From: Actinopolyspora biskrensis
GTDB taxonomy: Bacteria > Actinomycetota > Actinomycetes > Mycobacteriales > Pseudonocardiaceae
DNA: 64,000 bases
Direction: 5' to 3'
Assembly: GCF_013408175.1 (NCBI RefSeq)
Contig: NZ_JACBYW010000001.1
Coordinates: 372,001-436,000, forward strand
In this document: positions 43,891 through 47,285 of the stretch, one piece after another
Layout: each line of letters starts with the position of its first letter
Numbering within the stretch: position 1 is the first letter of the stretch
Made by a program: the position numbers and the translations under genes
Notes under the pieces: generated by a model
The model's database searches: none
What the model saw: the letters and a program-made list of their open reading frames with translations, nothing else
What the model was told of the DNA's origin: nothing

Positions 43891-43927
43891 CGTGTGTCCC
43901 GAGCTTCACGGGGTCGGGGCTTCGGCG

Positions 43928-43955
43928 CGTGGTCGTGTGGATGTCAGTACCACTC
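43928..43955 (+). repeat. Direct repeat within the toxin island, first copy
   Basis: CGTGGTCGTGTGGATGTC-A-GTACCACTC recurs at 47212-47239 with one substitution. This copy spans the 3' end of the Imm1 gene and its downstream bases. Confidence 0.8.
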
Positions 43956-44390
43956 GGCGAGCTGCCAGTGGACGCAGGTGGGGCGCTGGCCGGTGTGGAT
44001 GAATTCGTCGATCGCGGTGCGTATCAGATCGATCGGTAGGGCAGCGTTCTGGCGAAATTCCGTGCCGCTGTGTGGGGAGAACAGTATTCGAGGAGCATCG
44101 TCCGGCGCGTGAGGGTTGAACGAGTCTCGGGCGTCCCCGTCCGAGCCCTCTTGGAACCAATTCAGCGCGCCGTATCCGGTGCCTGGCTCCACCATGACGC
44201 GTAGTTGGTGTCCGGGGAGTTCGCTGTTGTCGGCGGTGAGTGGTCGGTCGCACACGTAGATCAAGCTGGGCCAGTCGCCATGATCGTCATCGACGATCGT
44301 GCGGATCAGCTCGGTGATTTCGCTGTCGGTCTGAGCATAGTGTCGCCGGTTCTCAACGATCGCCGTCACGACGTTGGTTATGGTCGTCAT
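43944..44390 (-). CDS. Imm1 family immunity protein
   Basis: The 148-residue Imm1-fold protein should neutralise the deaminase encoded immediately upstream. Landmarks are LIYVCDRPL, LRVMVEPGTGYGALNWF, and the C-terminal AIDEFIHTGQRPTCVHWQLAEW. The ATG at 44390 overlaps the toxin stop (ATGA) and has GAAAGG upstream, giving toxin and antidote from one mRNA with immunity second. Imm1 pairs with nucleic-acid deaminases in many polymorphic-toxin loci. The gene's last codons lie inside a repeated 28-base sequence. Confidence 0.88.
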   Translation of the reverse strand: MTTITNVVTAIVENRRHYAQTDSEITELIRTIVDDDHGDWPSLIYVCDRPLTADNSELPGHQLRVMVEPGTGYGALNWFQEGSDGDARDSFNPHAPDDAPRILFSPHSGTEFRQNAALPIDLIRTAIDEFIHTGQRPTCVHWQLAEWY

Positions 44391-45226
44391 GGTATCGCCT
44401 TTCCGTGGAAGACGTGAGGCTGGTCGGTACCGGGCTCCCAGACGTACAGGGTGTAGCCACGTGGAAGGATGGCTGGTACGGCGAACTCGCACCCGTAGGG
44501 CTCGCGGCAAATTTCGTTGTTGACGACCAGGACGCCGTTGGTGTTGCCGCGCTCTCGCATGATCTGAGCGGCCTTCGTCTCGACGTGCGTACTGACGTCG
44601 GGACGGCCGATGTCGCGCGGCAGCTCGGGATAGTGGTCGCTGGTAATCAGGAGGGCACCTGCACGGTCAGCGAGTTCGCTCTCCAAGCGTTGTTCGCGCT
44701 GCTGTTGTGTCTCCTCCCTCTCGTGCTGATCGCGTTGCCACGATTCCGCACCTCCTTGCCACGGGGACCGCCCGGCTCCGCCGCTGCGGCGGTCGATTTC
44801 GTTGCCGTCCGGGTCGACGAACAAGCCGGTGGTGGGCTCACGGCGACCACGCACGGGTAGTCGATCGCGGGCTCTGACGACACACTCCGATGTCATCGAC
44901 GCTTTGTCGACGATTCTTGAGCCCGTCGAGGGGTGCGGCAGGCTGAGCGGGGATTGGTCGGTGTTGAGGCCGAGTCCGGCGAGGTAGTTGATCAGGTGGG
45001 TTCGGGTGGTCTCGCTCAGGGCGAGCACGTCGTCGATGAGCTCGCGTGTTCGTTCGAGCAGCGCTACCGCTTCGGTCAAGTCGGGCGACGAGCTGCCTTC
45101 GCCGACTTCGGTCAGGGTGGGCAGGGCGTATTCCTCGATCCAGGCTTTGATCTGGTGGAGTTGTTCGGGCGGGATGCGTCCGAACATCCCGCCGAGGGTG
45201 TTGCCCACCTCTTGCACCTCGGACAT
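44387..45226 (-). CDS. SCP1.201/DddA-like DNA deaminase toxin
   Basis: The 279-residue protein ends in a cytidine-deaminase-fold domain of the SCP1.201 group (about 185-279). The zinc/proton-shuttle motif is H214-V-E216 (THVETKAAQIM), followed by the two zinc cysteines C240 and C246 (ICREPYGC), the C-x5-C variant typical of this group rather than C-x2-C of DddA. The N-terminal 90 residues are helical, and 100-185 is a charged Arg/Gln/Glu-rich linker. There is no signal peptide, so export through a type VII-like route is inferred from the small helical gene upstream. The toxin probably deaminates cytosine in rival DNA. Confidence 0.85.
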   Translation of the reverse strand: MSEVQEVGNTLGGMFGRIPPEQLHQIKAWIEEYALPTLTEVGEGSSSPDLTEAVALLERTRELIDDVLALSETTRTHLINYLAGLGLNTDQSPLSLPHPSTGSRIVDKASMTSECVVRARDRLPVRGRREPTTGLFVDPDGNEIDRRSGGAGRSPWQGGAESWQRDQHEREETQQQREQRLESELADRAGALLITSDHYPELPRDIGRPDVSTHVETKAAQIMRERGNTNGVLVVNNEICREPYGCEFAVPAILPRGYTLYVWEPGTDQPHVFHGKAIP

Positions 45227-45235
45227 GCCGGGCTC

Positions 45236-45484
45236 CTACAGGACAGCGGAAAAGGACCGGACGTGTTCGGCAGCCTGTATCGTTGCCTGCGCTGCTTCGC
45301 CTGCTTTCTCGACTGCGATTCCGAGAAGCTGGAGTGCCTGCCGCACGTCGTGGTTGGTGCTGGTTCCGGCGACCTGGTGCAGCTGCCCGAGTAGCTCGTC
45401 GAGCGTGTTCTGCGCTGCCTGCAACTCGTCGGCGGGGGCGGTGTCGATGATCTGCTGTAACTGGCCGCGAATGTTCTCGAGCAT
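45236..45484 (-). CDS. Small helical protein (DUF6244-like)
   Basis: The 82-residue all-alpha protein (EDL/ALQ heptad-like spacing, LLGQLHQVAGTS...LLGIAVEKAGEAAQ) resembles DUF6244 proteins that commonly precede SCP1.201-like deaminases in Pseudonocardiales and recall WXG100-sized secretion partners. It has no WXG motif. It ends nine bases before the toxin ATG, whose GGAG overlaps this gene's end. A role in toxin export or chaperoning is inferred from size and position. Confidence 0.65.
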   Translation of the reverse strand: MLENIRGQLQQIIDTAPADELQAAQNTLDELLGQLHQVAGTSTNHDVRQALQLLGIAVEKAGEAAQATIQAAEHVRSFSAVL

Positions 45485-45495
45485 GATGGATCTTC

Positions 45496-45738
45496 TTACC
45501 AACAGGGGACGACAGTCAGACCGGGTTCGCGGCCTGCGCGCACGTGCTCCGGGCATTGGGTGGGGGTGTAGGGGTCGAGGTAGAGGTAGAGCTGACCGGT
45601 GGTGGTCAGTACCAGCGCGTCGACCGAGCCCCCGTGCGCTAATGCGTATTCCCCGCGCTCGACGTCGTTGTGCACGCCGGGGGTGTCGATGAGCACGCCC
45701 CCCGGTAGCCAGTAGTGCCGTCTCTCGCTCGTTTTCAC
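45496..45738 (-). CDS. Hypothetical protein of the toxin operon
   Basis: The 80-residue protein has two beta-rich blocks (WLPGGVLIDTPGVH and DALVLTTTGQLYLYLDPY) and two cysteines, with no recognised motif. It starts at a GTG with GGAAAGGATG upstream and ends 11 bases before the helical-protein gene. I do not recognise the family; membership of the operon rests on spacing. Confidence 0.6.
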   Translation of the reverse strand: MKTSERRHYWLPGGVLIDTPGVHNDVERGEYALAHGGSVDALVLTTTGQLYLYLDPYTPTQCPEHVRAGREPGLTVVPCW

Positions 45739-45744
45739 GCCTGC

Positions 45745-45828
45745 TCATCCTTTCCAGCTGGGTTGGTCACGATCGCGCCACGGATATTCGTTGGAGCAGT
45801 CGTCACAGAACGATCGGATGTGGCTCAT
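45745..45828 (-). CDS. Possible 27-residue micro-protein with a CDDC motif
   Basis: An ATG overlaps the stop of the upstream micro-frame (ATGA) and encodes MSHIRSFCDDCSNEYPWRD and a short tail. Its end provides the ribosome binding site of the 80-residue gene. The Cys pair could bind metal. Coding status is uncertain. Confidence 0.35.
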   Translation of the reverse strand: MSHIRSFCDDCSNEYPWRDRDQPSWKG

Positions 45829-45959
45829 CCGTCGATCACGGGTCGGGGAGCTTCGGCGCGATCGCACTGCCCCGGGCAGAACAGCCCCACCTTCGACCGA
45901 CGCACGACCGACTCCTCGGTCCGACCGCGAGGTGCTTGCACTGCGCGACCCTGACTCAT
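45825..45959 (-). CDS. Possible 44-residue leader protein of the toxin operon
   Basis: The frame from the ATG at 45959 encodes a basic peptide ending DRAEAPRPVIDG, with one CPGQC motif. It would be the first gene after the operator region and is coupled to the next micro-frame. No homology is recognised. Confidence 0.35.
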   Translation of the reverse strand: MSQGRAVQAPRGRTEESVVRRSKVGLFCPGQCDRAEAPRPVIDG

Positions 45960-46094: not shown

Positions 46095-46100
46095 GTGGGC

Positions 46101-46940
46101 ATGTCATCTGCGAGACGTCGTCAGCTCGGCTCATGGCTTACGAAGCTCCGTCAGTCGGCAGGATTCGATGTGGAAGACGCAGGTAGTGTTCTCGGCTGCT
46201 CAGCGTCGAAAGTTCGTCATCTCGAAGCGGGACGCTCCAAGATCAAGCGTCATGAGCTCGTGACCTTGCTCGACCTCTACGAAGCGGACCAAGACGTTCG
46301 GAACCAGTTGGACGAGACGCGTCAACAAGCCGAGCAGCGTGGTTGGTGGGAGAGCTACCGAGTACCGAGCTGGTTCGAGCCGTTCGTGGACTTCGAGAGC
46401 TTCGCCACCGAAGCGGTCAACTTCGAGCTCGACCTGATCCCTGGCCTACTACAGACGGAGGCGTACGCCTACGAGATCCACCGAGCGGGCCGCTACACGA
46501 CGAACCCCGTGGATATCTCACGGCGGGTGCAGGCCAGAGCGGAACGTCAGAAACGGCTCACGGAGTTGAACCCGCTACGCCTTCGAGCGGTTGTCAACGA
46601 GGCGGCCCTACGCCGCGAAGTCGGCGGTCCCGCCGTCATGGCTGAGCAGTTGGATCAAGTGATGCGCTGGTGTGAGCTTTCGAACGTGATTGTTCAGGTG
46701 CTCCCCTACAGCGCCGGGGCGCACGCCAGCCCTTCCGGCGCGTTCGCGTTGCTGTCGTTCGACAACAATGAGGCTGTCGGATTTCTCGACACTCCGTTGG
46801 GAGGGCACACCGTGGACGATCCCAACGACGTGGAGGCTCTGAAGTATGTCGGGGATGAGCTGAGGTCTACAGCCCTACCAGCGCCAACCTCGTTGGAGTT
46901 GATACGTAGCATTCGGGAGGCGCACACGGCACAGACCTAG
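46101..46940 (+). CDS. XRE-family regulator with DUF5753 domain
   Basis: The 279-residue protein has an N-terminal HTH (GFDVEDAGSVLGCSASKVRHLEAG, about residues 20-45) and a C-terminal DUF5753 domain starting around residue 85 (WFEPFVDFESFATEAVNFELDLIPGLLQTEAYA) and including QVLPYSAGAHAS. Such proteins are usually paired with a DUF397 gene, as here. Base composition (many A/T-ending codons) is lower in GC than the flanking core genes, suggesting acquisition with the island. It likely binds the tandem operators upstream. Confidence 0.9.
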   Translation: MSSARRRQLGSWLTKLRQSAGFDVEDAGSVLGCSASKVRHLEAGRSKIKRHELVTLLDLYEADQDVRNQLDETRQQAEQRGWWESYRVPSWFEPFVDFESFATEAVNFELDLIPGLLQTEAYAYEIHRAGRYTTNPVDISRRVQARAERQKRLTELNPLRLRAVVNEAALRREVGGPAVMAEQLDQVMRWCELSNVIVQVLPYSAGAHASPSGAFALLSFDNNEAVGFLDTPLGGHTVDDPNDVEALKYVGDELRSTALPAPTSLELIRSIREAHTAQT

Positions 46941-46952
46941 GAGGTTGGCACA

Positions 46953-47144
46953 GTGGATCTCTCGCGCGCGACGTGGCGAAAGTCGTCGCGGTCGAACAGT
47001 GGTGGTAACTGCGTTGAGGTCACCGTCACACCGACCGTTGCTGGGGTTCGCGACACCAAGGACCGCTCGGCCGGGTATTTCACTACCAACCGGAAGCAGT
47101 GGCAGGCGTTCCTCGACGCGGTGAAAACCGACCGGTTCGCCTGA
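46953..47144 (+). CDS. DUF397 domain protein
   Basis: The 63-residue DUF397 protein shows the hallmark WRKSSRSNSGGNCVEV and VRDTKDR followed by WQAFLDAVK. DUF397 genes follow XRE-DUF5753 regulators in actinobacteria and several act as their antagonist or toxin-like partner. The GTG is 12 bases after the regulator stop with AGGAGG before it. Confidence 0.92.
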   Translation: MDLSRATWRKSSRSNSGGNCVEVTVTPTVAGVRDTKDRSAGYFTTNRKQWQAFLDAVKTDRFA

Positions 47145-47211
47145 TCCGCTCACGGTGTGAAACGACCCCTGGTGCTGTCGGGGGGCGTTTCCGCATTTCA
47201 GGACCTCAGCA

Positions 47212-47239
47212 CGTGGTCGTGTGGATGTCGGTACCACTC
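47212..47239 (+). repeat. Direct repeat within the toxin island, second copy
   Basis: It matches 43928-43955 with one change. On the minus strand the adjoining codons read Gly-Gln-Pro-Gly-Glu-Trp-Tyr, resembling the Imm1 terminus Trp-Gln-Leu-Ala-Glu-Trp-Tyr, so it is probably a remnant of an Imm1 3' end. Confidence 0.65.
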
Positions 47240-47285
47240 ACCGGGTTGCCCACAGCGCTCTTGTTCTCCGAACGTGGAGCGCTGC

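Follow-up and report, generated by a model that had tools for sequence, protein, structure and literature searches.

A compact DddA-like deaminase toxin of Actinopolyspora biskrensis shares its N-terminal domain with a helical protein family linked to an EccC-like ATPase

Introduction

The closest known warhead to that of the toxin studied here is DddA, the double-stranded DNA cytidine deaminase toxin of Burkholderia cenocepacia (PF14428, SCP1.201 class), in which the cysteines are spaced C-x2-C. We analysed a toxin cassette within a 64,000-nucleotide stretch (the window, in whose positions all coordinates are given) of contig C1 of the 4.95-Mb genome of Actinopolyspora biskrensis. Compared with DddA, the toxin encoded there is compact (279 residues), has a C-x5-C cysteine spacing and carries an N-terminal domain of its own (NT) in place of type VI delivery; it is accompanied by an Imm1 immunity protein and a small stand-alone helical protein, D. 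PMC3482391 tabulates SCP1.201 deaminases together with Imm1.

For delivery, the nearest parallels come from type VII secretion. As described in PMC9600955, the type VIIb LXG toxins combine an N-terminal domain with a variable tip and have small helical partners, Lap1 and Lap2, related to WXG100. The Actinopolyspora toxin resembles these in its N-terminal domain, variable tip and small helical partners, but the WXG signature is missing, the host is an actinobacterium, the motor has no predicted membrane anchor, and partner and toxin N-terminus are related as members of one family. EsaD, another type VIIb toxin, has its EsxB/C/D partners encoded in a complete type VIIb secretion gene cluster, according to PMC10653861; like EsaD, the toxin would attack nucleic acid and has small upstream-encoded partners and an immunity protein, whereas its motor lies elsewhere in the genome and not within one cluster.

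In the openly licensed literature, judged by titles and the starts of abstracts, SCP1.201/DddA-type deaminases appear as base editors under development, and the search found no account of how a compact actinobacterial deaminase is delivered to its target cell and no description of the ATPase-adaptor module reported below. Toxin and immunity gene are unremarkable members of families already known. What is out of the ordinary is the delivery side, comprising a soluble EccC-like motor and a helical adaptor family whose domain the toxin carries, and we lean towards the view that the toxin is a client of this type-VII-like export ATPase, with D as its dedicated partner.

Results

The warhead and its immunity protein

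An earlier note, written from the DNA letters, had described an SCP1.201/DddA-like toxin of 279 residues with the motifs H214-V-E216 and C240-x5-C246, coupled to Imm1 through an ATGA overlap, and had suggested a profile search of residues 185-279. Each of these claims was borne out. Residues 179-276 match the Pfam DddA-like family PF14428 (E 7.2e-23, 81.4 bits against a cut-off of 25), with the deaminase fold that marks its members; the motif residues lie exactly where they had been placed, E216 and C246 being invariant across 26 sequences; and the protein whose ATG overlaps the toxin's TGA scores 67.1 bits against PF14430 (cut-off 22.4). From this family membership, the toxin's likely effect is mutation of DNA in rival cells. 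The zinc-ligand histidine of the HxE motif varies: among 67 deaminase toxins it is present in 41 and replaced by aspartate (DxE) in 18, and the pattern is unmatched in 8.

Two genome samples were used, one of 150 genomes from the family (as grouped for genome searches, wider than NCBI's Actinopolysporaceae, where NCBI places the genus) and one of 296 genomes from across the class, including two family members. PF14428 matches were found in 75 of the 150 family genomes, the open frames being mostly ~150-370 residues long among the matches listed. Class-wide, nine of the 296 genomes had a match, seven of them outside the family, and in six of these seven the open frame spans 1029-3732 residues. 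Since warhead frames are short in the family and long outside it, the compact form is characteristic of the family in these samples. The remark of the earlier note that the toxin has no large delivery domain is literally correct, but its residues 1-90 form a conserved domain that can be swapped, as shown below.

NT, D and an 86-residue protein form one family

NT is predicted to fold as a helical hairpin. Profile-profile comparison with hhalign paired NT with the 86-residue protein encoded beside the ATPase described below at 98.2% (E 4e-14), D with NT at 97.2% (E 4.6e-11) and D with the 86-residue protein at 96.9% (E 1.8e-10), against 0.6-1.4% for reversed profiles, 0.9% being the reversed control for NT with the 86-residue protein, and 0.1-0.5% for 20 column-shuffled profiles. 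An NT model matched 223 of 19,784 frames in the fetched loci and none of the same frames when reversed. By these profile comparisons, NT, D and the ATPase-linked 86-residue protein are one family. A profile built from 20 toxin N-termini (A3), which also detects the 86-residue gene, matched 120 of the 150 family genomes, many of the matches being this conserved stand-alone protein rather than a toxin, and seven genomes had 13-28 NT-profile matches each.

The tips attached to NT differ. It is fused to an EndoU domain in one locus (L159; PF14436, 3.9e-12), to Imm1 in another (L160), and to at least two further kinds of tip that had no Pfam match at 0.01 (L118/L156/L161 and L115/L065). With one N-terminal domain and tips that are DddA-like, EndoU or of other kinds, the toxins conform to the definition of polymorphic toxins. 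Small genes lie beside the NT fusions of L118, L156, L161, L115 and L065 and may be immunity genes. In L121 (G112:C7), two stand-alone NT-family frames sit next to frames in which HExxH-like peptidase motifs were recognised by eye.

D had been called DUF6244-like in the earlier note; its helical nature holds, but the label is loose, as D has no match to DUF6244 (PF19757) at E<=1. That model exceeds its cut-off in none of the 150 family genomes, and weak matches were confined to three of 26 related toxins (best 0.0037) and one 86-residue relative (0.011). A D-like frame stands directly upstream of 13 of 56 NT toxins, ten of the 13 in Actinopolyspora, so D is not general and looks like a dedicated extra adaptor copy rather than a universal need. 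The 56 NT toxins include loci chosen through their match to the NT model; among places picked by the deaminase, 39 of 58 carry NT. We propose, from its family membership, that D is a dedicated partner of the toxin, and by analogy with Lap1/Lap2 and EsxB/C/D it may form a complex with NT ahead of secretion. To that extent the suggestion that the small upstream proteins form an export or chaperone module survives for D, while two other upstream frames look non-coding.

Toxin relatives are also encoded on contigs C4, C7 and C6 of the same genome; on C4 and C7 the toxin and a shortened D form a single in-frame fusion. This fusion, together with the presence of D-like frames before just 13 of 56 NT toxins, would suit a scheme in which NT and D merely fold, dimerise or restrain the toxin, lysis frees it, and the tie to the ATPase reflects shared ancestry of small helical proteins. 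Such a scheme does not explain why the NT family and the ATPase occur together almost without exception, or why NT is exchanged for a hydrophobic segment as documented below, and we regard it as very improbable.

An EccC/EssC-like ATPase accompanies the family

Twenty places matched by A3 were chosen and fetched. Eighteen had an open reading frame of more than 850 codons nearby, and the other two look toxin-like. Two of the large frames, when tested, proved to encode FtsK/SpoIIIE ATPases whose best NCBIfam matches, EccCa and EssC, were below cut-off. In A. biskrensis the set lies on C4, ~6 kb from the sister toxin there, and comprises the 86-residue protein, an 83-residue protein, a 969-residue ATPase and a frame for a partner of ~120 residues; the closest relatives of the ATPase are found in Actinopolyspora species (81-85% identity). 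Its predicted fold contains an EccC-type DUF domain and serial FtsK-type ATPase domains, and EccC and EssC head its Foldseek listing by a wide margin. It thus resembles EccC, the ATPase of ESX type VII systems, in having a DUF-like domain, an FtsK-type motor and a further ATPase-like domain. Unlike EccC, it lies below the EccCa cut-off, has no predicted membrane segments, and had no ESX gene recognised near it among crude neighbour calls that were not scanned systematically. The EccC equivalog TIGR03924 (cut-off 509.15) was not reached either by a relative in L090 (85.9 bits) or by the A. biskrensis protein (96 bits). Neighbouring genes were called by a crude method based on G+C by codon position, which misses genes; it called the second small protein in ten of 18 ATPase loci.

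The ATPase (counted at E<=1e-80 in the family and at E<=1e-60 class-wide) is present in 119 of the 150 family genomes, A. biskrensis included. Both A3 and the ATPase were found in 118 genomes, A3 alone in two, the ATPase alone in one and neither in 29, a co-occurrence that is partly built in because A3 also detects the 86-residue gene beside the ATPase. Class-wide, the ATPase occurs in 31 of the 296 genomes, and A3 matches 29 of these 31 compared with 9 of the 265 lacking it. Wherever the two share a contig, they are on one strand and no more than 2.6 kb apart (24 of 24); of the remaining class-wide ATPase genomes, five have the A3 match on a different contig and two have none. The 86-residue gene is upstream of the ATPase on the same strand in all 30 named records (ATPase identity >=44%).

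Two further observations concern the ATPase loci. A lipoprotein-like protein of ~256 residues is encoded ~4-5 kb upstream on the same strand in ten of 30 loci (L217-L246) and is a candidate for an envelope component of this module. Distant cyanobacterial relatives of the ATPase (L267, L268, L271 and L277; ~27% identity) had no detected 86-residue partner.

A hydrophobic segment mostly takes the place of NT where the ATPase is absent

Of the 68 family genomes having both the ATPase and PF14428, 58 were sampled without regard to NT, each at a single deaminase place that was, or lay near, the best listed match; nine of the remaining ten genomes had only weaker matches. NT was found at 39 of the 58 places (24/29 and 15/29), and over the 150 residues preceding the deaminase all hydropathy windows stayed at or below 1.66, one place being too short to test. 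In the seven deaminase-bearing genomes lacking the ATPase, all 15 places were inspected: 12 had a hydrophobic segment (called at a Kyte-Doolittle value of >=1.9 over a 19-residue window, a criterion that cannot tell signal peptides from anchors), one had NT, one was broken and one was cut by a contig end. The contrast of 39/0 with 1/12 (NT/hydrophobic) gives a Fisher p of 6e-11, uncorrected for relatedness. An Imm1-like frame comes after 55 of the 56 NT toxins and ten of 11 hydrophobic-segment toxins.

The exchange bears on two other accounts of the toxin. According to one, it leaves through an ordinary ESX (type VIIa) system, NT and D being diverged partners of the WXG100 kind, while the soluble ATPase is either an accessory motor or unrelated. 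A canonical EccC is indeed encoded in A. biskrensis and in all 18 genomes tested, NT has the predicted hairpin shape, and weak matches to the WXG100 model (best 0.023) came from two of 26 toxins. But seven of those 18 genomes lack the soluble ATPase, and their toxins mostly bear the hydrophobic segment, not NT, although EccC is equally present; moreover, the W-x-G and YxxxD/E motifs were each seen in 0 of 16 86-residue proteins, 0 of 5 D proteins and 2 of 20 NT domains. Export by ordinary ESX therefore seems unlikely.

The other account keeps the whole system indoors, the ATPase, the small partners and the NT toxins acting within the producing cell, on invading DNA for instance, under restraint by Imm1. 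The lead of EccC and EssC in the Foldseek listing and the EccC-type DUF domain speak against it, as does the occurrence of the same warhead and Imm1 behind a hydrophobic N-terminus in relatives lacking the ATPase; the 1029-3732-residue warhead frames in six genomes of other families also fit outward delivery. We judge an intracellular role to be quite unlikely.

Cassette layout and flanking features

The features of the cassette and its flank are collected in Table 1. The earlier note had counted three small upstream frames as genes, of which one stands. Relatives of the 80-residue protein were found by tblastn in the C4 and C7 loci of the same genome and in L047 (53-62% over 52-72 residues), as well as in L120 (59% over 34 residues); they adjoin sister toxins or toxin remnants, in A. 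biskrensis and two other genomes of the genus, and the coding bias of the frame is normal. In the fetched loci the 27-residue frame had no relative besides itself and the 44-residue frame, apart from itself, just two matches (E 0.02-0.04). As neither has credible relatives or a coding-type G+C pattern, both are unsupported as genes.

Beyond the cassette, a divergent pair on the plus strand encodes an XRE-type regulator and a DUF397 protein. A 53-base direct repeat (81%) occurs at 43914-43966, covering the 3' end of Imm1, and at 47198-47250, past this pair; the latter copy may be what is left of another Imm1 cassette. In L013 of the same genome (G000:C10, near the contig end), the frame after a toxin remnant is Imm1-like and apparently whole.

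Table 1. Features of the toxin cassette and its divergent flank (window positions)
Feature	Position	Strand	Remarks
Compact DddA-like DNA deaminase toxin, 279 residues	44387..45226	-	NT ~1-90, linker ~91-112, deaminase ~113-279
NT domain, toxin residues 1-89	44960..45226	-	Predicted helices 2-15, 20-42 and 48-84
Imm1 immunity protein, 148 residues	43944..44390	-	PF14430 E 3.1e-18; ATGA overlap with toxin
D, 82-residue stand-alone helical protein of the NT family	45236..45484	-	hhalign against NT 97.2%, E 4.6e-11
80-residue protein, GTG start	45496..45738	-	tblastn relatives form the C-terminal portion of longer proteins encoded upstream of sister loci
27-residue frame, unsupported as gene	45745..45828	-	Self matches only; G+C by codon position 0.46/0.54/0.64
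44-residue frame, unsupported as gene	45825..45959	-	G+C by codon position 0.76/0.60/0.69
XRE-type regulator (HTH_31 + DUF5753), divergent flank	46095..46940	+	PF13560 8.4e-13, PF19054 1.4e-50
DUF397 protein, flank	46953..47144	+	PF04149 4.2e-19

Discussion

The cassette would thus encode a polymorphic toxin whose DddA-family cytidine deaminase tip attacks the DNA of rival cells, with Imm1 shielding the producer. NT, of ~90 residues, would serve as a helical trafficking adaptor that pairs with, or mimics, small helical proteins of its own family, namely the neighbouring D and the 86-residue protein at the C4 ATPase. The adaptor complex may then be handed to the EccC/EssC-like ATPase, which would power outward export, presumably through a membrane channel, much as LXG toxins with their Lap or Esx partners are passed to EssC.

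Several observations weigh against export by this ATPase. In the VIA comparison its middle domain fits FtsK motors just as well as EccC/EssC (Z tied, 18-19), and with a hydropathy maximum of 1.24-1.88 in 15 relatives and 1.58 in the A. biskrensis protein it has no predicted membrane segment. No channel gene was recognised beside it in crude gene calls over 6-kb flanks, whose genes were not compared with family models. WXG and YxxxD/E, which serve ESX substrates as export motifs, are absent or rare in the NT family. No DddA-like match was found in 51 of the 119 ATPase genomes, which implies some other or older role for the ATPase. Conversely, NT was unmatched at 19 of the 58 deaminase places in ATPase genomes; ten of the 58 places have fewer than 70 in-frame residues before the deaminase, and the other NT-negative ones look, by eye, helical but diverged or broken. 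One genome (G074) has an NT toxin yet no ATPase even at E 1e-15, and L123, picked in the NT search, has a hydrophobic stretch (2.01) before NT in the open frame, which may lie before the true start. Finally, the toxin genomes lacking the ATPase cover few genera, and the Fisher p ignores kinship.

With the motor, the adaptor domain and the natural exchange of NT for a hydrophobic segment named, the delivery question becomes testable by single-gene deletion. More tentatively, the loci may represent an unnamed type-VII-like branch in actinomycetes, built from a soluble EccC-type motor, helical adaptors of ~86 residues and compact polymorphic toxins that bear the adaptor at their N-terminus, to which DNA deaminases, EndoU and tips without a Pfam match might all be hitched. 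Export through the ATPase would bring a motor lacking a membrane anchor into type VII biology and make NT a search key for unrecognised toxins; the link through the NT domain suggests how toxins tagged in this way may exit the cell.
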